DNA of 64,000 bases from an uncultured Spirochaetales bacterium (GCA_944388965.1 CALXKL010000004.1:124001-188000), one strand, 5' to 3'. Shown: positions 20,681 to 39,061, counted from the first letter of the stretch. Program-made: numbers and translations. Notes: generated by a model from the letters alone, not told the origin.

Positions 20681-20920
20681 CACAAATTGAGGCAATACTA
20701 AAGAAATAAAATGAAAACATCATGATTACAGCAAAATACATAGCTGAATTTGATGATATACAACAAATGAAAGAGCCAATAAAGGTGAATGGCTCTTCCA
20801 TAGATGACGCTTCTGCATCAAACTCATAAAAGTCAAATTCCTTAGGCGAATTCAGCCTCTGACACACGGTTTCACATTAGGCGGACAAAGCAGGCGTTCA
20901 TCTTCTTTGGAGAAAGGAAA
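20681..20920. other. AT-rich non-coding gap between gdhA and the MFS gene
   Basis: No gene was seen. The stretch is much AT-richer than its surroundings. It contains an imperfect hairpin AAGAGCCA...TGGCTCTT (about 20770-20796) with no T-run on either strand. A reading frame continuous with gdhA crosses it, but its composition and residue content (runs of aromatic and Ile codons) do not look coding. Confidence 0.5.
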
Positions 20921-20959
20921 GGGGGCCATGACGAAAGAACATCTTTCTTCACAGCCCCC
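20921..20959 (-). terminator. Terminator of the MFS/TrpA-like operon
   Basis: A long hairpin (GGGGGC...GCCCCC ends with a mostly paired GAAGAAAGA/TCTTTC interior) follows the MFS gene by about 43 bp on the minus strand. It runs into TTTCCTTTCTCC. It marks the downstream end of the 17-gene cluster. Confidence 0.75.
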
Positions 20960-21002
20960 AGCATCACAATTGGCGGAAATGGGGTTTTTCAGCTCAATGG
21001 AA

Positions 21003-22241
21003 TCACATTTCGACTTCCTTGGCGGACATCCTCTGGGCATAGAGAATGAGGAAGAGAATCAAAAGTATCACAGCCGAATACAGCAACCAGGCGACACGAT
21101 AGGTCCCCATGACATCGAAGACCAGTCCGGAGAACGGAACCCCCAGAGCCATACCTACGAAATACATGACCTGCTCGTTGCTGTAGATGATGCCATATTC
21201 CTTGTCACCCATCAGGCGGTTGATGACCGTAGGATACACACCGGTCTGGATTCCTGCACACAGGCCCATGATGACAGCATATGCCAGGGCCATCGGGGCT
21301 GAAGAGATGAAGAGAAGGACAATCTCGGCAATGAAGAACATCAGGAATATTATTATGTTCGTCCGACGGAATCCCGCCTTCTCATATACAAGACCAAGCC
21401 CTATCTTTCCTATGGTGTCGAAGAACATTATCGTCGAGTATGCTATCGATGCGAAGTCGGAGGAGAATCCGATATCGCACAGATATGCGATGACATGATT
21501 CTGAGTCCCCATGAACACGAATCCGGTAAGGAACATCGCGATGCCGACACACCAGAACGTCCTGGTCCTGAGCGCCTGGTTCCGCGTTATGCCACGCTCA
21601 GAAACAGGCGTGTCCCCGGATGCGGTCTCTTTTGCGCCGAACTGGCTCTGCCCCACATCGGAAGGATATACCTTGATCAGGAAGATCACCGGAATGAACA
21701 CCAGAACCATATAGATGAAGGCAATGATCCTGAAGGCGTTGTTCCAGCTCGAGTTCTCTATGATGCTGTTCGCAAGAGGAACCACGAACATCGCCGATAT
21801 CCCGGATCCGGCGAACGCGATGCTTGTCGCAAGCGCCCTTCTCTCGAGGAACCAGTTCGCCATGAGCATGGCGATGGGAACGGAGTTCAGAAAACCGGAG
21901 AAGATTCCGTTCAGAGCGGAGAACAGATAGAAGTGCCATACCTCGCTTACAAGCGAGTAGCAGAATATGGCGATCGTCGTCATCACTGCACCGGCATACA
22001 GCAGGAGCTTGAAGCTGTACTTTCTGAACCACTTGCCGATGAACGGAAGCATTACCATCGTCATGATGTGGCTGAACGTCGAGTAGAACGAGAAAGCCGC
22101 CCTCGATATGTCCAGAGACTCGCACATCGGAATCAGGAAGACGCTCATCGAATAGTTCGGGATGCCGAGGCCAAGCCGGAGCATCACGCATCCGGCTACG
22201 ACGACCCACCCATAGAAGAATCCGCTTCTCTTCGTCTGCAT
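21003..22241 (-). CDS. MFS transporter, OFA (oxalate/formate antiporter)-like
   Basis: A 412-residue 12-helix major facilitator. The N-terminus FFYGWVVVAGCVMLRLGLG and the later GIFSGFLNSVPIAMLMANWF and GLCAGIQTGVYPTVINRLMG resemble the oxalate:formate/monocarboxylate (OFA) subfamily. A hydrophilic central loop (~195-215) separates the halves. It is the last gene of the TrpA-like operon, 10 bp after the preceding stop. In this context it may export an acid end product or import an acidic substrate of the pathway (inference). Confidence 0.87.
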   Translation of the reverse strand: MQTKRSGFFYGWVVVAGCVMLRLGLGIPNYSMSVFLIPMCESLDISRAAFSFYSTFSHIMTMVMLPFIGKWFRKYSFKLLLYAGAVMTTIAIFCYSLVSEVWHFYLFSALNGIFSGFLNSVPIAMLMANWFLERRALATSIAFAGSGISAMFVVPLANSIIENSSWNNAFRIIAFIYMVLVFIPVIFLIKVYPSDVGQSQFGAKETASGDTPVSERGITRNQALRTRTFWCVGIAMFLTGFVFMGTQNHVIAYLCDIGFSSDFASIAYSTIMFFDTIGKIGLGLVYEKAGFRRTNIIIFLMFFIAEIVLLFISSAPMALAYAVIMGLCAGIQTGVYPTVINRLMGDKEYGIIYSNEQVMYFVGMALGVPFSGLVFDVMGTYRVAWLLYSAVILLILFLILYAQRMSAKEVEM

Positions 22242-22251
22242 ACAAACCGAC

Positions 22252-22983
22252 CTATTTCACGGCACAGGCCTGAAGTTCCGCTAGCTTGGCCTTGAAGGCG
22301 GCCTCGTCATCCCAGAGCCTCATCAGGACATTACCGACGATGACACCGTCAGCCCCACCTTCCTTCGCGGCTTCAAGGTCTGCAGCACTCTTCATGTCGG
22401 CAATTGCGAAGATCGGAGCCGTGACACCCTGGCAACGGATGTAGTCTATCCTCTGTTTCCAGGTTTCGAAACCTCGGTTCGGCGCCTCGGTCTTCCGTCT
22501 GGTGCGCAAAGTCACTATGTTGTTGAGACCCTTGACCCGGTCTATGTGATCCTGAGGCATGTAATAGCCGATGCCTTCGACGGTGTATAGGCCATGCGAC
22601 CTCATATAGGCCGTATATGCATCCCGATCGTCATTGCCGGCAAGCCGGACGGAATACATTCCAAGCTCATTGCAGAAATCCGTGAACCTCTCGATTCCGA
22701 TCTCGTCGATCACGTCCTTGTATACGACTATGCTCAGCTGAATGTCTGGATATCGCTTCCTGAGCTGTCTGAACGCGTCCATGTAGTAGTCATAAGACGG
22801 ATGGGCAGCAAGTGCATCCGCCATGCATTTCTTGATGAAGTCGGTCTCTCCATACGGATCATGCGAGGGCATGTCGATCTGGAAACTGTCTGCACCTCCT
22901 GCAATATACTTCTCGACCATGTCCATGGACCTGTCGACCGTAGGACATGCCAAACTGATGTAGTAAATCACTCTGAAAGACAT
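22252..22983 (-). CDS. TrpA-like TIM-barrel protein (paralogue 1)
   Basis: A 243-residue protein resembling the tryptophan synthase alpha chain. The N-terminus is VIYYISLACPTVDRSMDMVE and the C-terminal phosphate loop is GGADGVIVGNVLMRLWDDEA. The TrpA catalytic Glu segment (LELGIPF) is replaced by FQIDMPSHDPYGETDFIKK, so Gln stands where Glu49 would be and the Asp60 region is changed. No trpB or other tryptophan genes are nearby. The start ATG 22983 has AAAGGAGGAGG directly upstream. It is one of three consecutive paralogues (22.2-24.5 kb). A phosphorylated-substrate lyase or aldolase is plausible, but the reaction is unknown. Confidence 0.8.
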   Translation of the reverse strand: MSFRVIYYISLACPTVDRSMDMVEKYIAGGADSFQIDMPSHDPYGETDFIKKCMADALAAHPSYDYYMDAFRQLRKRYPDIQLSIVVYKDVIDEIGIERFTDFCNELGMYSVRLAGNDDRDAYTAYMRSHGLYTVEGIGYYMPQDHIDRVKGLNNIVTLRTRRKTEAPNRGFETWKQRIDYIRCQGVTAPIFAIADMKSAADLEAAKEGGADGVIVGNVLMRLWDDEAAFKAKLAELQACAVK

Positions 22984-23000
22984 TTTTCCTCCTCCTTTTT

Positions 23001-23738
23001 TCATTCGACTATCGTGCTCTGCATCTCGGCAAGCAGCTTCCACAAAGCCGGTTCATCGTTCCAGAGATTCATCAGGACGTTGCCGACATAGACACCATCT
23101 GCACCACCTTCGCGCGCAACGACCAGATCATCTGCAGTCTTCATATCCGCCGTGGCGAATATGCGTGCCGTGACACCCTTGTCCCGAACGTACGCAATAC
23201 GGTCCTTCCAAGTCTCCAGACCACGATTGGGTGCCTCGGTCTTGCGCCGGGTCCTCATATGGATGATTCCCGTCGCCGTCCTGCACCTCTCGATGTCCTC
23301 TTCAGGCATGAAATAGTTGATGGTATCGGATACGGGCAGACCTCTCTCCTTCAGGCACTCGACGTAATCAGGAAACACCTCTGTACCTGCGATACGCACC
23401 GTGAAGGCATCGATCTCCTTGCAGAAATCCGCAAACTTCTCCTTTCCGATTTTCGCCACTACATCAGGGTAGACGACGACATGAATCTCAAGATCCTTAT
23501 GCTTATCGCGTATCGAGCGGATCTGATCCATATAGTAGTCATAGTTGCCGTTGTAGTCGGCGATGCATTTGGACATCATCGCCTTGACCATGTCCGTCTC
23601 TCCATATGGGTCCGCAGAGGGCATGTCGATCTGGATGCCACGAACTGCGGCATTGGCGACATACTGGTCCACCTTCTCGAGAGTCCGGTCGATCGTCGGA
23701 CATGCTAAAGTGAAATAATAGACGGGATAGAACTTCAT
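23001..23738 (-). CDS. TrpA-like TIM-barrel protein (paralogue 2)
   Basis: A 245-residue TrpA-fold protein. It is highly similar to paralogue 1: YYFTLACPTIDRTLEKVDQY, IQIDMPSADPYGETDMVKAM, RTRRKTEAPNRGLETWKDRI and GADGVYVGNVLMNLWNDEP. As in paralogue 1, the catalytic Glu of TrpA is Gln and the ADGP loop is YGET. ATG 23738 follows CTGGAGGTATT. It lies 17 bp upstream of paralogue 1 and 27 bp downstream of paralogue 3. Close sequence and tandem position show recent duplication, perhaps with heteromer formation or substrate diversification. Confidence 0.8.
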   Translation of the reverse strand: MKFYPVYYFTLACPTIDRTLEKVDQYVANAAVRGIQIDMPSADPYGETDMVKAMMSKCIADYNGNYDYYMDQIRSIRDKHKDLEIHVVVYPDVVAKIGKEKFADFCKEIDAFTVRIAGTEVFPDYVECLKERGLPVSDTINYFMPEEDIERCRTATGIIHMRTRRKTEAPNRGLETWKDRIAYVRDKGVTARIFATADMKTADDLVVAREGGADGVYVGNVLMNLWNDEPALWKLLAEMQSTIVE

Positions 23739-23765
23739 AATACCTCCAGTTCATTCATATTCGGT

Positions 23766-24512
23766 TCATTCCTTCCCAAAGCCGCCCTGCCCTCCGGCAC
23801 AGGCGACAAGAGAATCGAAAAACGGCCATAGCCGGGCCTCGTCATCCCAGAGATTCATCAGGGCATTGCCGATTATTGCGCCATCGGCCCCGGCATCGAT
23901 CACCTCCTGAAGCTTCTGTACTGACGATATGCCCTCCACCGCCAGAATCCTTCCTGTCACTCCTGCATTGCGGATGTATCTGATCTTGTCGGCGAAGGAT
24001 ACGCATCCATGAGGCATGACCTCTGCATGCTTCTTGTAATTCAGGTTGAATGTCCCTGCTGGAATACCGGCAGCACAGCGCAGGGATTCGTCAGACAGGT
24101 ATCTGTCTATTCTCCCGATGACGGCGATGCCGCTTTTCCTCAGAAAGTTCTCCAGATCGGGATCTCCTCCGGCGATCATGACAGTGTGGATACACGTCGC
24201 GAAGATGAAATCCACGAAATTCTCACGACCTATGGAATCAACGACATCAGGATACACGACCAGATTCGTATCAATCTGGGGATGCGCATGGCAGAAACCT
24301 GCCATAGCATCCATATAGACGCGGTAATCAGGCTCCTGTGCAAGGGCTTCCTGCATGAAGCCCTTGACAAGAGGGGTCTCGAATACAGGATTCCTGGATG
24401 GCATATCGAACTGTACAGACTTCATCCCATGATCGACATAAGCCTGCGCGTGTGCGACTGAGTTTTTCACGTCCGGAGAACAGAATGTGATATAGAACAC
24501 TATCGAAAATGC
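23766..24512 (-). CDS. TrpA-like TIM-barrel protein (paralogue 3)
   Basis: A 248-residue TrpA-fold protein, the most divergent of the tandem three: VFYITFCSPDVKNSVAHAQA, VQFDMPSRNPVFETPLVKGF and GADGAIIGNALMNLWDDEAR. The RTRRKTEAPNRG segment of the other two is changed to NLNYKKHAEVMPHGCVSF. Gln again replaces the TrpA catalytic Glu. It is the first gene of the TrpA-like/MFS transcription unit. ATG 24512 has AAAGGAG 8 nt upstream, and a strong TTGACA-N17-TATCCT promoter lies just before it. Confidence 0.78.
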   Translation of the reverse strand, partial: AFSIVFYITFCSPDVKNSVAHAQAYVDHGMKSVQFDMPSRNPVFETPLVKGFMQEALAQEPDYRVYMDAMAGFCHAHPQIDTNLVVYPDVVDSIGRENFVDFIFATCIHTVMIAGGDPDLENFLRKSGIAVIGRIDRYLSDESLRCAAGIPAGTFNLNYKKHAEVMPHGCVSFADKIRYIRNAGVTGRILAVEGISSVQKLQEVIDAGADGAIIGNALMNLWDDEARLWPFFDSLVACAGGQGGFGKE

Positions 24513-24536
24513 CATCTCGGAACTCCTTTCAAAAAC

Positions 24537-24565
24537 AGGATAAATGCGAGATGGCATATTGTCAA
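24537..24565 (-). promoter_or_regulatory. Promoter of the three-TrpA-like/MFS operon
   Basis: Minus strand: TTGACA (24565-24560), exactly 17 bp, TATCCT (24542-24537). An ATATTG-A-CAATAT dyad overlaps the -35. Upstream (24566-24654) is an extreme AT tract with the palindrome TTTTATAATTATAAAA (24581-24596), resembling an UP element or nucleoid-protein site. Confidence 0.7.
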
Positions 24566-24654
24566 TATTTTATATTTTATTTTTATAATTATAAAATTTA
24601 CGAACTTTAGATTTTGTATTGTTTACAAAAATCCTGTAGTATTTTTTCTAAAAC

Positions 24655-25803
24655 CTACCTGAACATCTCCCTCGCTTTCATCATTCGCTGAACAATATCG
24701 ACACCGAACGGGCATCTGCTTTCACATGCATGGCAGGCAATGCATTCATCTGCATTGTGTTCCAGTGCATGATAATGCTCTTTCAACGTAGCCATCGGCG
24801 TATCATCCAGGCACGCCATATCAAGATATTTGTTGACCTGGGCGATATCGATATGGGCACTGCATGGCAGGCAGTGATTGCAATAGACGCACCTTCCGTT
24901 CATGGAGAACTTCGGAGCCTTCGAGAATATGAACGAATAATCCTTCTCGCCGTCATCCAGGCTCTCATAGGACAGGCAATCCGCAACCTGTTCCACGCTC
25001 TGCATGCCAAGCAGGACACTTGCGACGCCCGGTCTGGTCAATGCGTAATGTATGCATTGCGGAACGGTCAGCGCCGCTCCAAACGGAGAAGTCCTGGCAT
25101 CGAGAAGAGCTCCAGCCGCCAGTGTCTTCATGACAGTGATTCCGATTCCGTTCGCCTCGCAGTACGAGTACAGCTCCTCTCTTACGGAGTTGACACCGGC
25201 GACTTCGATATCGTTGAAGAATTCGCTGTCAAGCTTCTTCGGACGAGGCGCATTCTCATCCATCACGTCGTATGCGGGGTTTATGCTGAAGAGCATCATG
25301 TCTATCACTCCGCTCTTTGCCGCCCTCAGCGCCTGGACCGGATTATGACTGCTTATTCCAAGGCTCCTTATCACGCCGAGCTCCTTGAGCTTGAGCGCGT
25401 ATTCAAGTATCGGACCATCAAAGATTCTGTCGTAATCCTGCGGATTGTCGATCAGATGGATGATTCCGATGTCGACATAGTCCGTCTGGAACCTGTCAAG
25501 AAAATCCTTGAAGAAGAACCTGACCTCGTCCATGTCCATTGTCCTGCCGTATTGTCCATCCTTCCATACCGATCGCAGATGACCCTGGATGTACATTCTG
25601 TCACGACGCCCTTTGAGAGCAGTCCCCAGATTCGACCTCACATCCGGATTGGACATGAAACAATCCAGAATGTTGACGCCTCCATCCATCGCAGCGGATA
25701 CGACATCATTCACAAGCGAGGCTGGCTTTCCCTCAAGATACTCGCCTCCCAGTCCGATCTCGGACACCTTGAATCCGGTTCTTCCAAGTACATTGTATTT
25801 CAT
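24655..25803 (-). CDS. AKR-fold protein with C-terminal 2[4Fe-4S] ferredoxin domain (1)
   Basis: A 382-residue protein. The aldo/keto reductase-type barrel (1-~275) starts MKYNVLGRTGFKVSEIGLGG. The ferredoxin-like tail has CVYCNHCLPCSAHIDIAQV and CIACHACESRCPFGVDI. Of the AKR tetrad, Asp (ILDCF) and His (GIIHLID) are kept. The Lys position reads IQGH, and the Tyr five residues after the Asp is Asn, so ordinary AKR chemistry is doubtful. It is paired with a paralogue 24 bp upstream and preceded by GGAGG. The iron-sulfur tail suggests electron transfer in the pathway (inference). Confidence 0.82.
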   Translation of the reverse strand: MKYNVLGRTGFKVSEIGLGGEYLEGKPASLVNDVVSAAMDGGVNILDCFMSNPDVRSNLGTALKGRRDRMYIQGHLRSVWKDGQYGRTMDMDEVRFFFKDFLDRFQTDYVDIGIIHLIDNPQDYDRIFDGPILEYALKLKELGVIRSLGISSHNPVQALRAAKSGVIDMMLFSINPAYDVMDENAPRPKKLDSEFFNDIEVAGVNSVREELYSYCEANGIGITVMKTLAAGALLDARTSPFGAALTVPQCIHYALTRPGVASVLLGMQSVEQVADCLSYESLDDGEKDYSFIFSKAPKFSMNGRCVYCNHCLPCSAHIDIAQVNKYLDMACLDDTPMATLKEHYHALEHNADECIACHACESRCPFGVDIVQRMMKAREMFR

Positions 25804-25827
25804 TGCAATATCCTCCTTTTCTTCTCT

Positions 25828-26973
25828 TCACAAGCCGAAGGTCTGTGCAGCCAGCCTCATGTTCTTCATGACGGGAACGGAGAACGGGCATCTCTTTTCA
25901 CAAGCACCGCATCCAATGCAGTCGCCAGCATGCGCATCAAGCGCTGCGTAATGCCCCCGCTCGGTCTCCGCCGCTCCATTCTGGGCAATGGTCAGATTCA
26001 GCAGTTTGGTGACCATGGCTACATCGATGTGTTTTGGACAGGGGGCACAATGGCCGCAGTATAGACATCTTCCACTCCAGTCGATTCGCGGGAAATCGGC
26101 AAAGGCCACCGCATAATCCCTGTCAGCCTCCGCTGCCGTCTCATAGGCCAGACAGGCATCAAGCTCCTCTCTGCTCCTCGCCCCGGCCATAATGCATGAC
26201 ACCGCAGGCCGCGTAAGGGCGTAGTGAATGCACTGAACAGGGGTCAGGGTCCTGTCGACCGGCGATTTGCGCACATCAAGCAGAGAGCCACCGGCGAACG
26301 TCTTCATCACGGTGATTCCGACACCGAGCTGGAGACATTCCTCATACAGGCCCTGTCTGGACGGGTCAAGGCAGAGGGCCGAGCCCTCATAGCTGCTCCT
26401 TTCGGCCATCGCATATATGTCGACAGATGAAGGCATGAGGTCATAGCACGGGTTTATGCTGAACATGAGGACCTCCACGCCCTGATGTACCAGCTGTCTG
26501 GCCACATCCGGGTTATGACTGCTTATTCCGAAAGCTCGGATCAGACCTTCTTCGCGGCATCTGAGGGCATAGTCCACAACTCCGTTGTCGATCAGCTGCC
26601 TCCATGTCTCCATCGAGTCGACATAATGGATCATTCCCACATCGACAAAGCCAAGACGTGAATTGTCCAGCATGAGTTCAAACGACTTCCTGACATCGTC
26701 GAGTCCACGGACGACAACATACTGGCCATCCCTCCATGCCGTGCAGAAATGTGCCTGGACAACAAGCTTCTCCCGCCGGCCACGCAGATAGGCGCCAATC
26801 CTGGCATGTATGTCGGGATCAGGTGTGTACATGTCCATGCAGTTGATGCCGTTTCCGATCGCATAATCGAGGAAAGCATCCGTCTCGTCTTGCGTCAAAC
26901 CATGGAAAGCGGCACATCCAAGTGCAATCTCGCTGACCAGGATTCCGCTTTTTCCCAGCTTTCTATAATTCAT
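25828..26973 (-). CDS. AKR-fold protein with C-terminal 2[4Fe-4S] ferredoxin domain (2)
   Basis: A 381-residue paralogue of the following gene: barrel MNYRKLGKSGILVSEIALGC, tail CLYCGHCAPCPKHIDVAMV and CIGCGACEKRCPFSVPVM. As in its partner, the AKR Asp (CMDMY) and His (GMIHYVD) are present, while the catalytic Lys position reads VQAH and the Tyr is not at its usual spacing. GGAGAGGATTTC precedes the ATG. It lies 138 bp downstream of the PocR-AraC regulator gene and is probably controlled by it. Confidence 0.82.
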   Translation of the reverse strand: MNYRKLGKSGILVSEIALGCAAFHGLTQDETDAFLDYAIGNGINCMDMYTPDPDIHARIGAYLRGRREKLVVQAHFCTAWRDGQYVVVRGLDDVRKSFELMLDNSRLGFVDVGMIHYVDSMETWRQLIDNGVVDYALRCREEGLIRAFGISSHNPDVARQLVHQGVEVLMFSINPCYDLMPSSVDIYAMAERSSYEGSALCLDPSRQGLYEECLQLGVGITVMKTFAGGSLLDVRKSPVDRTLTPVQCIHYALTRPAVSCIMAGARSREELDACLAYETAAEADRDYAVAFADFPRIDWSGRCLYCGHCAPCPKHIDVAMVTKLLNLTIAQNGAAETERGHYAALDAHAGDCIGCGACEKRCPFSVPVMKNMRLAAQTFGL

Positions 26974-27111
26974 GAAATCCTCTCCGGAACATCACAACGG
27001 GCAGACCATGAAGGGACAGCATTCCCGTGGATGACATATCATGACGACATCCTGGCAAGATAGACAGCGTATCGAACACTGCTTTAAGTGGGCTCCTGTA
27101 TCGGATGACGT

Positions 27112-28299
27112 CTATTTCTTCTTTCTATATTTCTTCATGGATGCCGCCTGGCTCTCTTTTCTGAAATCAAGCGGATTGACACCTGTGAAAGACTTGAAGA
27201 CCTGTGTGAAATAGCTCTGTCCGTTGAATCCGCACTGCTCTGCGATCTTGCATACATCACAGTCCGTATTGGACAGCATCTCCTTGCCCTTCTCCACGCG
27301 TATGAAGTTCACGTATTGCGTAAAGGTATAGCCGAGGCTCGAATTGAGTATGTTTCCCAGATGGCTCTGGCTGACCTGACAGTATTTTGCCGCCTGCTCA
27401 AGCGATATCTTCTCGCTGTAATGGGCCATGATGAAATTGTGCAGACGCCGGATGACTATGCTCTCCTTGGGGCTCGACTTGTCGTTATTGCTGGTAAGCG
27501 AGGACATGAGATCCACGACATGGATCAGATAGTCGACGAAATCATCCTCCTCCTTGAGCGTCTTGATCTGTGAATGGAACTTGTTCATCTCATGAAAGAC
27601 GGAAGGAAGATCGGCATTCGACTTGATAGTGCTGCGGGCAATCAGCAGGGATATCTCCTCGACTCGCTTGCGCACTTCGCTGGCATCATCACCAGTGACG
27701 GAGAAGAGGTTCGCCACCAGGTCTGGTATCGACGAGACGACCTGGTCGTCAAGACCGTTCGAGACCATCTTCAGAATCTGCTTCTCGAGCTTCAGGTTGT
27801 AATGCGAATAACCTTCTATTATCGGCCTGAAGCTGACACTGGGCAGCACATCGACGGACAGGTCGGTCGATGTGGAATAGCTGCTCGTGTTATACAGAAG
27901 GACTATCTCTCTGAGAAGATTCTGCAGAGTGTTGTACTGAGTCACGCTCAACAACGGCACGCCAGGCGATGCGACAAGGCCGCTGTACGAAAGCTGGACC
28001 GGGCCGAAGATGATATACCCGATCGGAACGGATCTGGTGTAGAAGTCGATGTTGATGAACGACAGCCCTTTCGAACAGACATACTGGTTGCACCCGAGAC
28101 CAAGGCCGGAGGTGTTGATGTACCGCAGATGGGAGTTCTGGCATTCGCCCACCGACACATCACATCCTTGGCAGGAGAACGAGAGAGCCTTGGTCACATC
28201 TTCAGGCTTGTCCAGGTCATAGACCCTGTAGTCTATACCGAAAAGCTGTTTGATGAGCTCGCCATATTTCTTGAGTGCCGCAAACTCTATGTTCGTCAT
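27112..28299 (-). CDS. AraC-family regulator with PocR sensory domain
   Basis: A 395-residue transcription factor. Residues ~8-180 match the PocR ligand-binding domain, with the Cys-rich signature CQGCDVSVGECQNSHLRYIN and later LGCNQYVCSKGLSFINIDFY, then GYIIFGPVQLS. A helical linker spans ~180-280, and a C-terminal AraC double HTH (~290-385) ends FNGQSYFTQVFKSFTGVNPL. PocR controls propanediol use in enterobacteria, and other members are thought to bind small organic ligands. It sits in the middle of the catabolic cluster and likely controls both flanking units. The TTGACA-N18-AATAAT promoter is at 28474-28445. Confidence 0.88.
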   Translation of the reverse strand: MTNIEFAALKKYGELIKQLFGIDYRVYDLDKPEDVTKALSFSCQGCDVSVGECQNSHLRYINTSGLGLGCNQYVCSKGLSFINIDFYTRSVPIGYIIFGPVQLSYSGLVASPGVPLLSVTQYNTLQNLLREIVLLYNTSSYSTSTDLSVDVLPSVSFRPIIEGYSHYNLKLEKQILKMVSNGLDDQVVSSIPDLVANLFSVTGDDASEVRKRVEEISLLIARSTIKSNADLPSVFHEMNKFHSQIKTLKEEDDFVDYLIHVVDLMSSLTSNNDKSSPKESIVIRRLHNFIMAHYSEKISLEQAAKYCQVSQSHLGNILNSSLGYTFTQYVNFIRVEKGKEMLSNTDCDVCKIAEQCGFNGQSYFTQVFKSFTGVNPLDFRKESQAASMKKYRKKK

Positions 28300-28444
28300 T
28301 CAATCCCCCCCCATCGTGATTCTCGTCGATGACAGGACCTCTCCCCGGCTTCAGACCGGAGCAGGAATGCGTAAGGGACGATTGCATTCCATCGGCTTCT
28401 TATAGATTTCGACAAGACTTCCATCAATCTGCATTCTACTATCG

Positions 28445-28474
28445 ATTATTTGAAAAATGAAGCGGACTTGTCAA
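28445..28474 (-). promoter_or_regulatory. Promoter of the PocR-AraC regulator gene
   Basis: Minus strand: TTGACA (28474-28469), an 18-bp spacer, AATAAT (28450-28445), with a TAGAAT a few bases further. It leaves a leader of about 140 nt before ATG 28299 in which I saw no known riboswitch. Confidence 0.5.
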
Positions 28475-28523
28475 ACTCTGCCATCAGATAGTGACAACAG
28501 GCAAACGGTCGCCAGGAGAAACC

Positions 28524-28551
28524 GCCGCTGCAGGAGTTCTCCCGCAGCGGC
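28524..28551 (-). terminator. Terminator after the importer/ADH operon
   Basis: A GC-rich hairpin GCCGCTGC...GCAGCGGC with an inner GGAG/CTCC pairing, 16 bp past the Fe-ADH stop. Short T-containing sequence follows on both strands. It separates the BMP-to-ADH operon from the regulator unit. Confidence 0.65.
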
Positions 28552-28566
28552 ATTCGTTTTCACTGA

Positions 28567-29784
28567 TCAATAAGACGCTTCGTAGATTTCCTCGATTGCC
28601 TCCTTTGTAAGCGGCTTGTAGCATCCGGCAAGGTAGCCAAGCTTCTTGCACACCTGCTCGGTGAACATGGCAAGCTTGTCATGCTCGATTCCAAGGTCGC
28701 GGATCCTGGTCTTGAGCTTGAGATCCTTCCAGAAGAAGTCCTTCACAGCCTGTATCGTCTCCTTTGCGAACTCGAGATCGCTCTTCCCCTCCTTGCTCAG
28801 CCCAAACACGTTCTGTCCGAGATCGACGAATCTATACAGCTTCGTCTCATCCCTGATGACCCATTCCATCCATCTCGGGGTGATGATGGCAAGGCCTTCA
28901 CCGTGTGTCGTATCGTTGTACGACGTAAGCTCATGCTCAAGGGCATGGACACTCCAGTTGACCTGATTGCCTTTCACGATATAGCCGTTGTTTCCCCATG
29001 ATGCACAGTACATCAGGTTCGCTCTGGCCTCGTAGTTGTCGGGCTCCCTCATCGCGATCGGAGCATACTTTATGACCGTCTTCATGAGAGCTTCGGCAAC
29101 ACGCGCCTGCATATATGCAGTCGTGACATTGGAGAAATAGGACTCGAAGATGTGGCTCAGGATGTCCGCACTTCCGGCAGCGGTCTGGAACTCGCTGACC
29201 GAATATGTGTACTCGGGGTTCTCGAAGGTCACCTTCGGTCTGACCTCGGGACCATGGAGTCCTCTCTTGATCGCAGGGGTTACCGTGTCATTGGTCCAGT
29301 TGCAGCCAGTGGCCATCTCGGTTCCGGTTGCGGCAAGCGTGAGGACCGTCAGGACGGGAAGAACCGGCGTATCGACGGCGGCACCCTTGCTGTTGAGCTC
29401 TGTGGACAGATCCCAGATGTCTCCATCATATGAATATCCGACGGCGATTCCTTTGGCCTCGTCGATGACACTTCCACCACCGACGGCAAGGACGACGTTG
29501 ACCTTGTTCTCCCTGGCGAATTCGATTCCCTTCCTGAGGTGGGAGACCTTAGGATTGGCGGATACACCAGAATATTCGAACCACTTCAGACCTGCGTCAT
29601 CCATGATCTTCGTCACCTTGTCCCACAGCCCCATCTTCCTGATGCTGCCACCACCGGTGACGAGAAGGACACGCGGCTCCTGCCCGTCCTTGCCGCCCCA
29701 TTTCTTCAGGGAGTCGGCCAGTTCATCGAGACAGTTCCTTCCGAACACGATCTTGGTAGGTACCCAAATCCAGAAATCTTTCAT
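28567..29784 (-). CDS. Iron-containing alcohol dehydrogenase (butanol dehydrogenase-like)
   Basis: A 405-residue group III ADH. The NAD(P) loop is LAVGGGSVIDEAKGIAVGYS (~95-114). The metal ligands fit the family pattern: Asp and His in GSADILSHIFESYF, His in SVHALEHELTSYNDTTHGEG. The N-terminus FWIWVPTKIVFGRNCLDELA is typical of NADPH-dependent BDH/YqhD-like enzymes that reduce aldehydes. It is the last gene of the long importer operon, 30 bp after a TrpA-like gene, with CAAGGAGGAAAGAA before the ATG. It would reduce an aldehyde produced by the pathway (inference). Confidence 0.92.
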   Translation of the reverse strand: MKDFWIWVPTKIVFGRNCLDELADSLKKWGGKDGQEPRVLLVTGGGSIRKMGLWDKVTKIMDDAGLKWFEYSGVSANPKVSHLRKGIEFARENKVNVVLAVGGGSVIDEAKGIAVGYSYDGDIWDLSTELNSKGAAVDTPVLPVLTVLTLAATGTEMATGCNWTNDTVTPAIKRGLHGPEVRPKVTFENPEYTYSVSEFQTAAGSADILSHIFESYFSNVTTAYMQARVAEALMKTVIKYAPIAMREPDNYEARANLMYCASWGNNGYIVKGNQVNWSVHALEHELTSYNDTTHGEGLAIITPRWMEWVIRDETKLYRFVDLGQNVFGLSKEGKSDLEFAKETIQAVKDFFWKDLKLKTRIRDLGIEHDKLAMFTEQVCKKLGYLAGCYKPLTKEAIEEIYEASY

Positions 29785-29814: not shown

Positions 29815-30543
29815 TCAATTCAGCTGCCTTGCGGCCTCTGCAAATTCACTTATCGTACGATGAAGTTCCTGCGGCCTGTCGTACAGAGCGATGATGGAAG
29901 AACCGAGGAAGAAGCCATCAGCCCCCGCCCTCATGACCCTGACGGCATCTTCAGGAGTGGCGATCCCTCCTCCACAATAGAGCGGACTGGAAATCCCCTG
30001 CCTCCGCAGATATGGAATCAGCTTCTCCACGGAGTCCGCCTCCGGGTTCAGATTCTGCCCTGCTCTCGGAAACGCCTGGCAGTAGACGAAGCCTCTTGTC
30101 CTTCTCGCCTGTTCGATTCTCCATGGTATGAGGTCATACGTCACAAGTCCGGCCAGATGGATATCCCGCATCTCCAGCTCACCTATGATCTCCTCGTCGG
30201 TAAGGTTGGCGGAATTCACATCGTGGATCCCACAGCAGTTCATCGCATCTGCGAACACCGTCGTACCGATTGCCTTGAGGACCTCGTCATACAGGAGCAC
30301 CGTCACCGGCACATCCGGCATGGCCTTGGCGATACATATCACAGCCTCCATGTGTTCGTTGTAATCAGGACATGCGGCATATGCCTGCTTCATGATCTCG
30401 TTGAGAAAAGGCTTTTCCCTGTTGTTCTCCAGGGGAATGCTGATCTCCAGCATGTTGCATCCTGCATCCACATAACGCCTTGCGGTCTCTATGCTCTTGT
30501 CTATAGAAGGGTAGCCGCTTGTCAGATATCCTATGATCTTCAT
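29815..30543 (-). CDS. TrpA-like TIM-barrel protein (paralogue 4)
   Basis: A 242-residue protein closer to genuine tryptophan synthase alpha chain than the other three: IIGYLTSGYPSIDKSIETAR, MLEISIPLENN with the catalytic Glu retained, and GADGFFLGSSIIALYDRP matching the phosphate loop. The Asp60 region (ADGP in TrpA) is NREKPFL. TrpA performs a retro-aldol cleavage releasing glyceraldehyde 3-phosphate, so an analogous C-C cleavage of a phosphorylated pathway intermediate is a reasonable guess. ATG 30543 has GGAGAAACAAG upstream and overlaps the BtpA gene stop by 4 nt. Confidence 0.82.
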   Translation of the reverse strand: MKIIGYLTSGYPSIDKSIETARRYVDAGCNMLEISIPLENNREKPFLNEIMKQAYAACPDYNEHMEAVICIAKAMPDVPVTVLLYDEVLKAIGTTVFADAMNCCGIHDVNSANLTDEEIIGELEMRDIHLAGLVTYDLIPWRIEQARRTRGFVYCQAFPRAGQNLNPEADSVEKLIPYLRRQGISSPLYCGGGIATPEDAVRVMRAGADGFFLGSSIIALYDRPQELHRTISEFAEAARQLN

Positions 30544-31364
30544 CTTGTTTCTCCTGAAAGCTTCTTCCAATCCGAGACGGCCAGCATGAAGTCTCTCGCC
30601 TTCATCTCGTCGACGGGATTCATCAGATTTCCGTCCTTCTTGAGAGCTGACCCCACTATGCATCCATCGCATGCCTCGTAATGGTCCGCAAGGTTCTTCA
30701 CGGTGACCCCGCTTCCGGCAACGACCGGGATGGACACCGCCGTCCTGACTCTGACGAAATCGCTGATCTGTGCGGAGACGCCTGTCTGCGCACCAGTGAC
30801 GATGAGAGCGTCGGCCCTGCTTGATACGGCCCACCTGGCGGAATCCTCAAGCGTTATCTCCCTCACCAGCGGAAACGAATGCTTGACCTGTATGTCGGCG
30901 AAAATCTTCACATCATCTGCGCCGATGCGCTTTCGGTACATCGCGGCACGGGCGCCGTTTGGAAGGACGATCCCCCTTGCAGACACCCTGACATCGACCA
31001 TGTAGGACAGGCGGACAAACGAGGCACCGACTATAGAGGCGATGGCAATCGCCGCAATCTGGTCTCCACAGGCGTCTATACCGACCGGAATCGATACCGA
31101 ATCCATGACTCGGGAGCACACATAGGTCAGAGCGGCGATCCGCTGCGCGTCCATCGCATCATCGGTCAATGGACCATCGTTCTGGTTCTCTACGACAAGA
31201 GCATCAAAACCGGTCCGTTCCAGCACCTGCGCATCGGCAACGGCTCTGTCAACAATCTCCTGCATGGAGAAGCGGTCGTCATAGCTTCCAGGCAGAGGAA
31301 GCGTGTGCACCATTCCTATTGTCATGCGTCTGCCGCTGATCATTTCCTGTACAAGGTCTATCAT
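30540..31364 (-). CDS. BtpA/SgcQ-family TIM-barrel protein
   Basis: A 274-residue protein with the BtpA hallmark IGMVHTLPLPGSYDDRFSMQ at 16-35 and DALVVENQNDGPL following it. The phosphate-type end is GSGVTVKNLADHYE then GCIVGSALKKDG. The family is annotated as 'photosystem I assembly BtpA' in cyanobacteria and SgcQ in an E. coli sugar operon. Its enzymatic role is unsettled, and the fold suggests a phosphate-dependent isomerase or lyase. It directly follows the kinase stop codon (GGAGCGAG then TAG-ATG) and overlaps the TrpA-like gene by 4 nt, so the three act together. Confidence 0.87.
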   Translation of the reverse strand: MIDLVQEMISGRRMTIGMVHTLPLPGSYDDRFSMQEIVDRAVADAQVLERTGFDALVVENQNDGPLTDDAMDAQRIAALTYVCSRVMDSVSIPVGIDACGDQIAAIAIASIVGASFVRLSYMVDVRVSARGIVLPNGARAAMYRKRIGADDVKIFADIQVKHSFPLVREITLEDSARWAVSSRADALIVTGAQTGVSAQISDFVRVRTAVSIPVVAGSGVTVKNLADHYEACDGCIVGSALKKDGNLMNPVDEMKARDFMLAVSDWKKLSGETR

Positions 31365-32345
31365 CTACTCGCTCCTCGCATCGCTTCTTCTCGCATTCCG
31401 TTCCAACATCTGCTCCAGATCCGGAAGATTGGATGTTGGCCCGCGTCCTTCAAGAACGAAGGACGACAGTGTGCTGCCATACTGGGCACACAGGCCAAGG
31501 GACTTTCCACGGCTGTATCCATACATGAAACCGGCAACGAAGGCATCGCCGCATCCGACGGAATCCACCTTGTGATGTTCGCAGTGCGTGATGGGTACCA
31601 CTTCGCAGCGGATCCTGCCTTCGGCATCGAGACTCTGGACAAGACTCCCCTTGCATCCGAGCGTCGTAACCACGACCTCCGCCTTGCCGGAATAAAGGTA
31701 GTCGGTCATCTTCCCGAGTCCCAGGAGGGAACACAGATGCTTCGCCTCGGACTCATTGGTGAATATGATCTTCGCCTTCGGCAGAATCGCCTCGCACAGC
31801 TCTTTTGGGAGAAGCGCCGGATCGTTCTTGTACGAGAAGGCGAAATCCAGGCCCATTTCATCCAGAATCTGGAGAATCCTGTACGAATACTGCGGATTAC
31901 CCATGACCATGAGCATCATCTTCGAATCCGAAAAGCTCTCCTCATCCACTTCTATCGGTGTGTCATACAGGGAGCTGTGGTCGCTGTCCTCGCCGAATCG
32001 ATAGATTATGGTCGCATGGTTCTGGTTGCGGTCCTGAAGGAGAATGCATCTGTTGTATGAACGGGTCTTCGGTGCGATGATGTGGTCCTTCGGCAGATCG
32101 TATTCATCGAGAATCTCATACAGCCTGTCCCTGGCATCAGGATCGGACCATCTCAGGACCGGCTTGACCCGGCAGCCGAGCTTCGTGAGAGCGTAGAACA
32201 CATTGAACACACATCCGCCATACAGGATCTCATCGCCAAACGGGTTCGTGGCAGTCGAAGTCTTTCCTATGGCAGGAAAGTCGTCAAATCTCAGTATCAT
32301 GTTGGTGGTGCAGTTTCCTACGGTCACGAAATCGAACTTCTCCAT
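31365..32345 (-). CDS. PfkB-family carbohydrate/nucleoside kinase
   Basis: A 326-residue ribokinase-fold kinase. N-terminal VTVGNCTTNMILRFDDFPAI and GGCVFNVFYALTKLG lie at the sugar-binding side. The C-terminal signature is DSVGCGDAFVAGFMYG, where the usual GAGD anion hole is GCGD and the Asp base is kept. It would phosphorylate a pentose, nucleoside or related sugar alcohol. ATG 32345 is chosen over the upstream GTG (32354) because GAGGAG lies 8 nt before it. Upstream is a pair of isochorismatase-like genes, downstream BtpA. Confidence 0.88.
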   Translation of the reverse strand: MEKFDFVTVGNCTTNMILRFDDFPAIGKTSTATNPFGDEILYGGCVFNVFYALTKLGCRVKPVLRWSDPDARDRLYEILDEYDLPKDHIIAPKTRSYNRCILLQDRNQNHATIIYRFGEDSDHSSLYDTPIEVDEESFSDSKMMLMVMGNPQYSYRILQILDEMGLDFAFSYKNDPALLPKELCEAILPKAKIIFTNESEAKHLCSLLGLGKMTDYLYSGKAEVVVTTLGCKGSLVQSLDAEGRIRCEVVPITHCEHHKVDSVGCGDAFVAGFMYGYSRGKSLGLCAQYGSTLSSFVLEGRGPTSNLPDLEQMLERNARRSDARSE

Positions 32346-32357
32346 ATGCTCCACTCC

Positions 32358-32945
32358 TCAGAACTCTCCGCTGTCCAGTCTTCTGATCACTTCCGCAGAA
32401 TCGATCACCTTGGCGAAATACCTGTTGATCTCATTCAGGTGGAAGGCCTTTATCTCCTCGTTGTTCGTGCTGGTCAAATCGCTGATCATAAACGTCTTGA
32501 AGTTGTGGCTCACGGAATCGATCGCCGTCTGACGACAGCAGACATTCGTCTTGATGCCGCTCACGAGCACGTTCTCCACCCCTGCCTGCTGGAGAATTCC
32601 GATCAGAGGAGTGTTGAGAAACGCGCTGTACGAGAACTTCCTGAGGATGACATCCCCGTCCATGATGTGGATCCGGTCGTCCAGGTCCTGGCTGCTCTTG
32701 TCATGCCTGATCACTCTACCGTCAAGCTCTGGAAGTACCGACTTCGCCGATGCCGTGACACCGGAGGAGTTGTGGTATTTCGTCCAGACATGGATGATGA
32801 GTACACCCTTCTCCCTGAACAGGTCGATGCACTCGACGGTCCTGTCCATCATCTCTCCTGCAGTCGGGTAGTAGTTGTCTCCGCCTGGCATGGTCAGAGC
32901 CTTCTGGAGATCGACGCTTATCAATGCTGTCTTGTAAACCTTCAT
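32358..32945 (-). CDS. Isochorismatase-like cysteine hydrolase (1)
   Basis: A 195-residue member of the isochorismatase-like (nicotinamidase-related) hydrolase superfamily. The catalytic triad is in place: Asp in ISVDLQKAL (~11), Lys in LRKFSYSAFLNTPL (~110), Cys in IKTNVCCRQTAIDSV (~145). Members hydrolyse amides such as nicotinamide, ureidoacrylate or N-carbamoyl compounds. It is the second of two adjacent paralogues, separated by 3 bp. The substrate is unknown, but an imported amide-bearing compound or its breakdown product fits. Confidence 0.87.
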   Translation of the reverse strand: MKVYKTALISVDLQKALTMPGGDNYYPTAGEMMDRTVECIDLFREKGVLIIHVWTKYHNSSGVTASAKSVLPELDGRVIRHDKSSQDLDDRIHIMDGDVILRKFSYSAFLNTPLIGILQQAGVENVLVSGIKTNVCCRQTAIDSVSHNFKTFMISDLTSTNNEEIKAFHLNEINRYFAKVIDSAEVIRRLDSGEF

Positions 32946-32948
32946 GAT

Positions 32949-33539
32949 TCAGAACTCTCCATTGTCAAGTCTTCTGAGGACTTCCTGCGAGTCGATGACC
33001 TTCGCGAAGTACCTGTTGATCTCATCAAGGTGGAACGCCTTCGTCTTCTCGTCGTTCGTACTTGTCATGTCGCTGACCATGAACGTCTTGAAGTTGTGGC
33101 TTACGGAGTCGATCGCCGTCTGACGGCAGCAGACGTTGGTCTTGATGCCGCATACCAGGACATTCTCGACACCTGCCTGCTGGAGCTTCTCCAGAAGCGG
33201 CGTGTTCCAGAACGCGCTGTAGGTGAACTTGCGGATGATCCAGTCCTCATCCTTTACGGTGAGCCTGTCATCAAGCTCCCGCCCCCACTCCGGATGAGGA
33301 ACCATCCGGCCTGCAAGCTCCGGATTCAGCTTCGGCCCATTGGAACACAGCCCCGAGGACAGATGGGGCATTGACCAGATGTAGACTATCTGCACCCCTC
33401 TGTCGCGGAACTCGTTGATCCTGCGAGCGACCCTGTCAATCATCTCCGTTGCGGTGGGATAGTAGTTTCCACCGCCCTCGACAGTAAGATTCTTCTGCAG
33501 ATCGACACAGATCAGTGCCGTTTTCCTATCCATCTTCAT
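32949..33539 (-). CDS. Isochorismatase-like cysteine hydrolase (2)
   Basis: A 196-residue paralogue of the following gene with the same Asp-Lys-Cys triad (CVDLQKNL, IRKFTYSAFWNTPL, IKTNVCCRQTAIDSV). The C-terminal halves are almost the same, and the differences lie around residues 45-95, which frame the active site. This suggests duplication with altered substrate range, or an oligomer of two chains. AGGAGAG precedes the ATG. It follows the NupQ-like permease gene by 18 bp. Confidence 0.87.
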   Translation of the reverse strand: MKMDRKTALICVDLQKNLTVEGGGNYYPTATEMIDRVARRINEFRDRGVQIVYIWSMPHLSSGLCSNGPKLNPELAGRMVPHPEWGRELDDRLTVKDEDWIIRKFTYSAFWNTPLLEKLQQAGVENVLVCGIKTNVCCRQTAIDSVSHNFKTFMVSDMTSTNDEKTKAFHLDEINRYFAKVIDSQEVLRRLDNGEF

Positions 33540-33557: not shown

Positions 33558-34487
33558 TTATGCCTCTCTGAAGATTCTCATCGTGTTCTTCATGCTCACG
33601 GGAATCTCCGTGATCAGGAAGACGATAATGATCGTGATATACGGAATCACCTTGAACAGCTCGGTCGTGTTCACATCGACGTACTTCGATAGACAGACCT
33701 GAAGTGCGTTGGAGAATCCGAACAGCAGCCCGAACAAACAAGCCTGGATGGGCCTCTTCTTTCCGCAGTTGATTGCAGACAGACAGATCAGGCCTCTGGC
33801 TGAAGCGATGTTCAGATTGAACATTCCCGTCAGCTCGACCGAGAGGTTCATGCCAGCCATCGCACAAGTACAGGCGGATATTGCCAGAGCGACCCACTTG
33901 AGGAAGTTCGTGTTGATTCCGACCGCCTCCGCAGCACCCTTGTTCTCTCCAGTCACCTGGATGTAGACCCCGAACTTCGTCTTGTAGAAGACGAATGTCA
34001 GGAAGATGATTATGAAGAACGTCAGGTATGTCAGCCTGGTCTGGTTGTTGAAGATATCGCTGATGAACGGGATGCTCCTGAGAATGGGGACGTCCACCTT
34101 CATCGAGGCCAGATCGATGATGTCCAATGCCGAGAGGAATCCTCTGCTGGGGAAGAACACGGACAGCAGGAACGGAGGAATCGCGCTGATTATCATGTTC
34201 AGCGAAAGACCTACTATCGTCGCATTCGCCTTGAGCTTGATCACAAACAGACCGAAGACCGCATTGAGAACAAGACACCAGATGAATGATGAGCAGATTC
34301 CAGCGAAGATGCTTCCGGAGATGACCGTGAACACGATCGAGGAGAAGGCTCCGACATTGATTCCCGCTTCAAGTGCGAAGTTCATCGTTCCGGCTTTCTG
34401 GACGAACACTCCACCGATACAGCACAGAAGCAGAGGTGTGGACATCTGGACTGTGTAATATAGAAGACTGACTATGAAATCGTACAT
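33558..34487 (-). CDS. ABC transporter permease, BMP/nucleoside-type (NupQ-like)
   Basis: A 309-residue membrane protein with about eight to nine hydrophobic segments. PLLLCCIGGVFVQKAGTMNF near the N-terminus and GFSNALQVCLSKY near the C-terminus are typical of YufQ/NupQ permeases of nucleoside importers. It pairs with the NupP-like permease 12 bp upstream, GGAGG preceding the ATG. The partner ATPase and BMP binding protein are in the same operon. Confidence 0.9.
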   Translation of the reverse strand: MYDFIVSLLYYTVQMSTPLLLCCIGGVFVQKAGTMNFALEAGINVGAFSSIVFTVISGSIFAGICSSFIWCLVLNAVFGLFVIKLKANATIVGLSLNMIISAIPPFLLSVFFPSRGFLSALDIIDLASMKVDVPILRSIPFISDIFNNQTRLTYLTFFIIIFLTFVFYKTKFGVYIQVTGENKGAAEAVGINTNFLKWVALAISACTCAMAGMNLSVELTGMFNLNIASARGLICLSAINCGKKRPIQACLFGLLFGFSNALQVCLSKYVDVNTTELFKVIPYITIIIVFLITEIPVSMKNTMRIFREA

Positions 34488-34499
34488 CAGATGACCTCC

Positions 34500-35597
34500 T
34501 TATGCCTCGACCGTCTGGACCGCGTCTGCAGATCCCCTCTGGGCGACCTTTTTCACGAAAGCCGGGGACAGATACTGGATCGAGAAGAACAGAATCAGGA
34601 CACCCTGGATGATGTTCAGCAGATCAAGCGGGAGTCCTATCTTGGACTGCAACGCGATGCTGCCATATCTGAATGCTCCGAACACGATCGCTATGATCAG
34701 GATGGCGATCGGATTCTGACGGGAAAGCACACAGATGTAGTAGCCCTGCCAGCCAAGTCCTGGATTGGTGCTGAACTCCGGCGTGAACTGCTTGTTGACA
34801 CCAAGCATCTCCGTACCGCCGGCAAGACCGGCGATTGCGCCGCTGATGAGGAACATGATGAAGATCTTCTTCTTGACCCTCATTCCCGCAGCCTCGGAGA
34901 ACTCCAGCTGACGCCCGATCGCATTGATCTCATAGCCGAACTTCGTCTTGCTCTGGATGAACCAGATGATGACTATGATCGCTATGGCCAGGAATATGGC
35001 CCAGGTCACCCTGTAGCTCGGGTTGAACTTCTGGATGACGGCGGATGACATGATCATCTCGGTGGAATCGTATGTCGCAGATCCCTGGAAGTGGCACTTG
35101 ACGAGATAGGTCGTGAAGTACGTGGCTGCATAGTTGAGCATGATCGTCGTGACGACCTCGTTGATTCCCAGATACGCCTTCATAGCCGCCGGGATACAGG
35201 CATACAACGATCCGAAGAACACGCCGCAGAGCAAAGCCAGAGGGATTATCACGTATGACGGCAGATTAAGCTCCGCGATTCCGAAGTAGCCGCCTCCGAT
35301 CAGAGCGGTCGCCATGGCCCCGATATACAGCTGCCCTTCGACTCCGATGTTCCAGATTCCGGACTTGAATGCGAACGCCGTGGCGACTCCGGTCATGATG
35401 AGCGGCGTCGCGAATCCAAGGGACTGCATTATTCCGCCAAAGCTTCCAAAGCCTTCCGCAAAGATCTGGAAATAGACATCGAGCGGATTGTATCCGGCCA
35501 TGAGCGCGAAGAACGCACCGACGAGGAAGGCCAGGAACAGCGGGATGACCACGTTTATAGTCGAACTTATGTTTTCATATTTCTTCTTGCTATCCAT
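34500..35597 (-). CDS. ABC transporter permease, BMP/nucleoside-type (NupP-like)
   Basis: A 365-residue membrane protein: PLFLAFLVGAFFALMAGYNP, GVATAFAFKSGIWNIGVEGQ (a hallmark of YufP/NupP permeases) and YLGINEVVTTIMLNYAATYF. ATG 35597 is chosen because GAGGAGAAGGGT lies directly upstream. An in-frame ATG at 35615 would overlap the ATPase stop. Together with NupQ it forms the translocation channel. Confidence 0.9.
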   Translation of the reverse strand: MDSKKKYENISSTINVVIPLFLAFLVGAFFALMAGYNPLDVYFQIFAEGFGSFGGIMQSLGFATPLIMTGVATAFAFKSGIWNIGVEGQLYIGAMATALIGGGYFGIAELNLPSYVIIPLALLCGVFFGSLYACIPAAMKAYLGINEVVTTIMLNYAATYFTTYLVKCHFQGSATYDSTEMIMSSAVIQKFNPSYRVTWAIFLAIAIIVIIWFIQSKTKFGYEINAIGRQLEFSEAAGMRVKKKIFIMFLISGAIAGLAGGTEMLGVNKQFTPEFSTNPGLGWQGYYICVLSRQNPIAILIIAIVFGAFRYGSIALQSKIGLPLDLLNIIQGVLILFFSIQYLSPAFVKKVAQRGSADAVQTVEA

Positions 35598-35607
35598 ACC
35601 CTTCTCC

Positions 35608-38429: not shown

Positions 38430-38507
38430 GTCTTCTTTCTCCTTTTTGTCGTTTTCCTCTTTTTGTTGTTTTCTTGTTTTCTTCCACTCTGATAAGCAGG
38501 TTGATTC

Positions 38508-38537
38508 ATTGTTCACATGGTTTTTTCAATTTGTCAA
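38508..38537 (-). promoter_or_regulatory. Candidate promoter of the BMP importer operon
   Basis: Minus strand: TTGACA (38537-38532), 18 bp, AACAAT (38513-38508), about 80 nt before the BMP start. The -10 is imperfect, so the call is tentative. Confidence 0.4.
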
Positions 38538-39049
38538 ACTGAATTTTGATAATTTTTCTCTCTTTCTAGAAAATTACACAGAAAATTATTTACAACAACC
38601 CAGATAGTTATAAGAATATCACTGGAAGTATGTTTCATTTTTACAACTTTACAAAAATATGATTGTGCGATTTTTAATAAGACACATCGGGTAACTCCCG
38701 CCCGCCAAAAGATTTCACCAATGTAAAACGCAAGGGCAGACCGAGAGTACATCCGCCCGCTCCATAGAGGAAGCACACAAGGATAGTACGGGGCCGATTG
38801 CACTTCCACATAGACCATGAAAGGAGGAAAACGGCAGGAGAAGAGCTCACCGCATAGACAGAACGCATCATTCCATCCAATGTAAAAATCAATCCGCTTC
38901 CGGACTTGGCCATGTTTCCACTTCCATAGTTGGCATCGAATTCTGTGCTTTCAGACATGCAAATCCGACTTTTGGACAACATGCACATCCACCACCAAAC
39001 AACAAGGATTCTCCTTCATCACCAGTGCATCCCGGACCGCCGTCTGTGG
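38538..39049. other. Non-coding gap between divergent BMP operon and PEP/pyruvate-binding gene
   Basis: This is about 0.5 kb with no convincing gene. 38540-38680 is strongly AT-rich. 38690-38900 has normal composition and contains an AAAGGAGG (38820-38827) with no start codon at a usable distance. I saw no riboswitch, tRNA or repeat. The right end carries the TATCAT -10 box of the next gene. Confidence 0.45.
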
Positions 39050-39061
39050 TATCATGTGGGC

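Follow-up and report, generated by a model that had tools for sequence, protein, structure and literature searches.

The window (the whole stretch of 64,000 nucleotides that was analyzed), from a gut spirochaete, has a minus-strand tandem of three complete open reading frames, each preceded by a good ribosome-binding site, which encode TrpA-like proteins with a glutamine in place of the catalytic glutamate (Q-type), i.e., T1 (22252-22983; 243 aa; ATG at 22983 behind AGGAGGAGG), T2 (23001-23738; 245 aa), and T3 (23766-24515; 249 aa). The identity to T1 is 51% for T2 and 34% for T3, and all three proteins contain the motifs QxDMPS..P..E(T) and GADG...GN.LM.LW, as described in the first-pass annotation. 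With the Pfam profile Trp_syntA they score 54.8, 30.0, and 41.6 bits, respectively (gathering threshold, 27), and with the NCBI trpA equivalog 45.7, 22.1, and 41.6 bits, all far below the cutoff of 102.35. A fourth TrpA-like gene of the window, T4 (29815-30543, minus strand; 242 aa; Pfam, 74 bits), overlaps the end of the BtpA gene, has kept the glutamate (E-type), and had been overlooked in the annotation; with 60.4 bits, it is also below the equivalog cutoff. AlphaFold (AF2) models of T1 (pLDDT, 93.6; 232 residues aligned to Salmonella TrpA 1ubs_A with 2.4 Å rmsd; Z of 26.1, tied among the top matches) and T4 (pLDDT, 94.3; Z of 28.1 to 2ekc_A) adopt the TrpA-type TIM barrel. A promoter-like site, TTGACA-17-TATCCT, is located just upstream of T3 (24565-24537), and a scan of positions 20900 to 28700 for promoters gave no excess over shuffles.

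The other genes of the cluster share the minus-strand orientation. An MFS transporter (21003-22241; Pfam MFS_1, 116 bits) starts 10 nt after T1, and the tandem is preceded by two aldo/keto reductases (AKRs) with a 4Fe-4S C terminus that lack the catalytic Tyr and Lys, AKR1 (24655-25803) and AKR2 (25828-26973). In all five aligned AKRs of such clusters (AKR1, AKR2, L057:5103-6251, L061:6510-7658, and L065:11385-11776), the Asp and His of the tetrad Asp-Tyr-Lys-His are kept, the Tyr is absent, and the Lys is replaced by His; judged by these residues, the Fe-S AKR-like proteins are probably not ordinary reductases. Further upstream are an AraC-family regulator (27112-28299; Pfam HTH_18, 63.8 bits), an iron-type alcohol dehydrogenase (Fe-ADH) related to YqhD/lactaldehyde reductase (28567-29784; NCBIfam NF011717, 232 bits, below the cutoff of 645), T4, a BtpA/SgcQ-family protein (30540-31364; Pfam BtpA, 228.7 bits; TIGR00259, 211.1 bits, above the cutoff of 153.4), and a PfkB-family sugar/nucleoside kinase (31365-32354; Pfam PfkB, 95 bits; no NCBIfam equivalog cutoff reached). 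Two isochorismatase-fold hydrolases follow (32358-32945, with conserved Asp, Lys, and Cys; 32949-33539, Pfam, 130 bits, and RutB-like with 65.7 bits, below the cutoff), then an ABC importer (33558-37170) with permeases at 33558-34487 and 34500-35615 and an ATPase at 35608-37170, whose family assignment is based on a reading of the translation and on synteny among the clusters, and finally a BMP-family substrate-binding lipoprotein (37269-38516) matching Lbp (7x0r_A), 4pev_A, and TmpC (2fqw_A). Beside the cluster, on the plus strand, a 1,024-aa open reading frame (38930-42004) has response-regulator-like and PEP-synthase/pyruvate-phosphate-dikinase-like regions by eye, and an Fe-ADH-like frame (41995-43179) comes after it.

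Active-site and phosphate-site residues

Residues were counted in TrpA numbering for 17 E-type proteins, 14 TrpA controls, and 14 Q-type proteins, the last of these from the window and from seven other genomes. Q35 of T1 is equivalent to Glu49 of TrpA, D37 to Gly51, and E46 to Asp60. Alignments to Salmonella TrpA with HMMER and MAFFT place the Gln at Glu49, and the overlay of the confident T1 model on TrpA supports this placement, so that the central claim of the first-pass annotation, three adjacent TrpA-like genes with Gln for the catalytic Glu, is borne out by the gene calls, the alignments, and the fold model. Since Gln49 is invariant in the Q-type (14/14), while Glu49 is invariant in the E-type (17/17, including T4) and the TrpA controls (14/14), the exchange is not due to chance. 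At position 51, all 14 Q-type proteins have Asp and all TrpA controls have Gly, while the E-type has Asp, Ser, or Ala. Position 60 is Glu in every Q-type protein, Glu (nine) or Asp (five) in the TrpA controls, and Glu or Asp in the E-type, and both acids (49 and 60) are kept in nearly all E-type members. The second catalytic acid is thus retained in the Q-type as Glu60, a point that the annotation had missed, and Asp51 and Glu60 are the likely candidates for the catalytic acids in place of Glu49. A loss of Asp60 as a special trait of the Q-type was considered and dropped, Glu60 being common in spirochaete TrpA.

The phosphate site of TrpA, which we take from TrpA structures to consist of Gly184, Gly213, Gly234, and Ser235, is altered in the Q-type. 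Gly234 is kept and position 235 is Asn (11/14) or Ser (3/14), but Gly211 is lost in 14/14 proteins, Gly213 is kept in only 8/14 (Asp or Glu in 6/14, with Asp in T1 and T2), and position 184 is Glu in T1 to T3. Tyr175 is lost as well. Going by the alignment, only half of the TrpA phosphate site is retained. The previous statement that the phosphate loop is kept consequently applies to the GADG...GN.LM.LW motif, Gly234, and Asn/Ser235, not to Gly211 and often not to Gly213, and the proposed binding of a phosphorylated ligand is weakened accordingly; it is uncertain for T1 and T2 because only half of the site remains.

Phylogeny, distribution, and cluster types

In a maximum-likelihood tree of 49 proteins, in which T4, Escherichia coli TrpA, L101, and group X carry a long-branch warning, the Q-type forms a single clade (support, 100/100), which answers the earlier question of whether these proteins belong together. 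Q- and E-type proteins are joined and stand apart from TrpA as well as from group X, which is likewise TrpA-like (support, 100/99); the E-type may be paraphyletic to the Q-type. Because each of the paralogues T1 to T3 has a counterpart in the Oscillospiraceae contig L061 and in a second spirochaete (L039/L060), the triplication either predates the separation of these lineages or was transferred as a unit. Group X has kept Glu49 (L053:14734-15504, plus strand; L043:3571-4353, minus strand). Its genes come from related spirochaetes, in which true trpBA is present as well, and adjoin genes for an FGGY-like kinase and an RbsABC-like sugar importer.

A scan of the contigs of 84,980 species, seeded with six Q-type proteins, revealed seven Q-type loci, three from spirochaetes and four from Clostridia, and one further Q-type spirochaete, G447, came from a phylum sample. 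A combined profile, with which members reached 219 to 348 bits and ordinary TrpA-like matches of these genomes only 60 to 80 bits, matched 12 of the 397 genomes of the Lachnospiraceae sample and 2 of 394 genomes from the order to which G499 belongs (query genomes counted); in a phylum sample of 398 genomes, it matched the query genome alone. This rare and patchy occurrence suggests horizontal spread. In the plasmid collection, TrpA matches were only ordinary or weak, and the Proteus match (H3) lies in an apparently normal trp operon.

Three cluster types can be distinguished, with E-type, BtpA, and Fe-ADH as the recurring core. Type 2, with the Q-type, has the order [GntR]-Q-E-FeADH-BMP-ABC-PermA-PermB-isochorismatase-PfkB-BtpA, which is conserved across Spirochaetota and Clostridia; exactly one Q gene lies directly upstream of one E gene in five simple clusters, and the window and its near relatives represent an expanded version, in which AKR genes and an MFS transporter accompany three Q genes. 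Type 1, which lacks the Q-type, reads GntR-BMP-ABC-PermA-PermB-isochorismatase-PfkB-nucleoside phosphorylase-BtpA-FeADH-E and was found in 11 genomes, i.e., one spirochaete, nine Lachnospiraceae, and G920. In type 3, importer and kinase are replaced by a mannose-type phosphotransferase system (PTS) followed by BtpA-E-FeADH (L100), or the PTS occurs with E, two ADP-ribosylglycohydrolases, and Fe-ADH but no BtpA (L101), so that BtpA is not universal. The two ADP-ribosylglycohydrolase-family genes of L101 (7901-9966, minus strand), located between the PTS, the E-type gene, and the Fe-ADH gene, perhaps encode enzymes that hydrolyze a phosphorylated N-glycoside. Altogether, the E-type occurs without the Q-type in 13 loci (11 phosphorylase and 2 PTS clusters), and an Fe-ADH, a candidate reductase of the product aldehyde, is present in every complete cluster read. 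The E. coli sgc operon, in which a BtpA-family protein (SgcQ) and a ribulose-phosphate-type barrel occur with a PTS, resembles the PTS version in L100; to our knowledge, it contains neither a TrpA-like protein nor an Fe-ADH.

The data agree in part with the expectation that the Q clade is always found with AKR and BtpA genes. BtpA is present in 7/9 Q genomes, and the two Q contigs without it are fragments of 5.8 and 8.2 kb. The cluster AKR subfamily (counted at an identity of at least 65%) occurs in only 5/9, which weakens the case for a constant association of the Q-type with an Fe-S AKR; in the type 2 clusters L057 and L065, the AKR gene directly follows BtpA. Another pattern concerns the nucleoside phosphorylase, which is absent from the cluster of the window: its subfamily is present in 11/11 type 1 genomes (56 to 100% identity) versus 0/9 Q genomes, which have ordinary phosphorylases only (25 to 38% identity), elsewhere in the genome. 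Q-type and cluster phosphorylase are mutually exclusive in the available data, i.e., 20 genomes whose shared ancestry within each type amounts to few independent events. The phosphorylase subfamily (L091:12912-13685, minus strand; orthologues in L041, L092-L099, and L102) scores 161 to 168 bits with TIGR01718 (cutoff, 280). The uracil-recognizing Gln/Arg stretch FYGQHEPER of uridine phosphorylase (3qpb) corresponds to FYSCMHDSKF in this subfamily, and its base is, due to this change, probably not uracil.

A possible catabolic pathway and its alternatives

Our preferred reading, put forward tentatively and with a likelihood slightly below one half, is that T1 to T3 belong to a re-purposed branch of the TrpA fold in a catabolic pathway, in which the Q-type would perform a front-end step and stand in for the phosphorylase. 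The reactions, the substrate class, and the order of the steps that we infer are as follows. A substrate would be taken up by the BMP-type (nucleoside-type) ABC importer, phosphorylated by the PfkB kinase, and rearranged by BtpA, which from its place in the cluster might be guessed to be an aldose/ketose isomerase or epimerase; the E-type T4 would then cleave a C-C bond of the sugar phosphate, and of the two products, triose phosphate and a short aldehyde, the Fe-ADH would reduce the aldehyde. The replacement of importer and kinase by a PTS in L100, where BtpA-E-FeADH stay, suggests that the core is supplied with a sugar that is already phosphorylated and fits the proposed roles of BtpA in rearranging and of the E-type in splitting a sugar phosphate and of the Fe-ADH in reducing the aldehyde. 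TrpA is a retro-aldolase with Glu49 and Asp60 as the catalytic residues (PMC11574760, PMC12930369), and T4 could still catalyze a TrpA-like retro-aldol reaction because Glu49 and an acid at position 60 are kept; alternatively within the pathway, the E-type could be an isomerase. Since the Q-type occurs where the phosphorylase is missing, the entry step, or help with it, may be attributed to the Q-type, which would act, sometimes together with the Fe-S AKR-like proteins, in a substrate-specific manner on a compound that the phosphorylase does not handle. That the Fe-S AKR subfamily adjoins the Q-type in only some clusters counts against the pathway. A nucleoside-like substrate is pointed to by the BMP-type importer, the RutB-like hydrolase, and the uridine-phosphorylase-like enzyme of type 1. 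In a more specific version, which we consider unlikely, the Q-type would be a new class of enzymes that, together with the Fe-S proteins, would open a glycosidic or C-C bond of an unusual nucleoside-like compound that phosphorylases cannot attack, with Asp51/Glu60 as a relocated acid instead of Glu49, and would pass a sugar phosphate to the TrpA-derived aldolase. Pseudouridine catabolism via the PfkB kinase was considered as well and found to be unsupported, as it needs neither an aldolase nor an Fe-ADH.

Related pathways have been described in other organisms, e.g., the non-carboxylating pentose bisphosphate pathway of haloarchaea, which proceeds through guanosine phosphorylase, ribose-1-phosphate (R1P) kinase, isomerase, aldolase, and glycolaldehyde reductase (PMC9700705). 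The sister clusters resemble its overall logic in their uridine-phosphorylase-like enzyme, PfkB kinase, alcohol dehydrogenase, and two barrels that are candidates for the isomerase and the aldolase. In contrast to the haloarchaeal pathway, neither a ribulose bisphosphate phosphatase nor a FucA-type aldolase was seen in the cluster, an isochorismatase-fold hydrolase is added, and the window has Q-type and AKR genes and no phosphorylase. Ribose-1,5-bisphosphate (R15P) isomerase (TIGR00511) did not exceed the cutoff in any of 22 genomes, which makes BtpA a candidate for this kind of step; the R1P kinase equivalog NF053626 (cutoff, 330) gave 26.4 bits for the PfkB protein of the window and 65.1 bits for that of L091. 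The disposal of 5-deoxyribose by drdK-drdI-drdA (kinase, isomerase, and aldolase; PMC6079011) and that of fucose and rhamnose likewise combine a kinase, a rearranging enzyme, and a C-C-cleaving enzyme, with an iron alcohol dehydrogenase in the case of fucose. By analogy, the proposed pathway may follow the scheme of kinase, isomerase, aldolase, and alcohol dehydrogenase by which fucose and 5-deoxyribose are disposed of. In contrast to these systems, only the FucO-like Fe-ADH family matches, and the aldolase would derive from TrpA instead of belonging to class II.

A TrpA-derived family outside tryptophan synthesis that is tied to an uptake-to-alcohol cluster does not appear in the searched papers. 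The search of open-licence papers for BtpA/SgcQ in connection with nucleoside or TrpA-like pathways returned no description of the cluster and no tested activity on record for any core enzyme. Should the E-type prove to be a new aldolase family and the Q-type a re-purposed catalytic barrel, "tryptophan synthase alpha" annotations in gut bacteria would be misnamed and BtpA would gain a testable place in a pathway. TrpA is among the best-studied enzymes, and the natural Glu-to-Gln swap at its key residue would then be a model of how a barrel changes its reaction.

Two other readings are improbable to a similar degree. All TrpA-like proteins of the locus might be variants of one isomerase or epimerase acting on related sugar phosphates, with the cleavage enzyme elsewhere in the genome. 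They share the fold of a barrel superfamily that also includes ribulose-phosphate 3-epimerase and HisA-type enzymes, Asp51 and Glu60 could form an acid/base pair, and three Q copies could handle stereoisomers. However, no cytosolic enzymes other than BtpA and the E-type are evident in L100 between uptake and Fe-ADH, the Fe-ADH needs a source of aldehyde, and half of the TrpA phosphate site is missing in T1 and T2. It is equally doubtful that the Q-type proteins are catalytically dead partners or regulatory subunits of the E-type, in which Gln49 would mark the lost catalysis. Heteromers are known in other paired barrels, and both the Q-E gene pairs of the five simple clusters and the loss of Glu49, Gly211, Tyr175, and often Gly213 would be in line with such a role. 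Yet an obligate Q-E complex is less likely because the E-type does without the Q-type in 13 sister loci and T1 to T3 do not adjoin T4, but sit with the AKR genes at a distance of 5 kb. Moreover, the diverged Q paralogues have kept Gln49, Asp51, Glu60, Tyr102, and the Trp at 241 without exception, which exceeds the need of a scaffold.

That T1 to T3 are genuine tryptophan synthase alpha subunits or indole-glycerol-phosphate (IGP) lyases feeding a lone TrpB is highly improbable, even though their Trp_syntA similarity is significant and a lone trpB exists in the genome, since Glu49 is Gln throughout the clade and even E49D alone abolishes TrpA activity (PMC12930369), the scores are far under the trpA equivalog cutoff, no trpC as a source of IGP was found in the 97%-complete genome, and genomes G496 to G498 hold a separate ordinary TrpA-like match besides the Q/E genes. 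Gln49 rules out TrpA's own Glu49 chemistry in the Q-type; the initial view allowed for a different reaction or for a complex, and either may apply. T1 and T4 share with TrpA (TIGR00262) and the BX1/IGL paralogues a complete TIM barrel, the acid at position 60, Tyr102, and, with Gly234, the C-terminal half of the phosphate site; the Q-type differs from TrpA in Gln49, Asp51, the losses at Gly211, Tyr175, and often Gly213, Asn235, its separate clade, and the lack of a TrpB partner in the cluster and of trpC in the genome. The earlier observation that trpB is not located nearby holds, and neither a further trpA-like gene nor trpC was found in the genome of the window. This sole clear trpB, on another contig (L005:1411-2703, minus strand; contig C7; 572.7 bits to TIGR00263), probably serves indole salvage.
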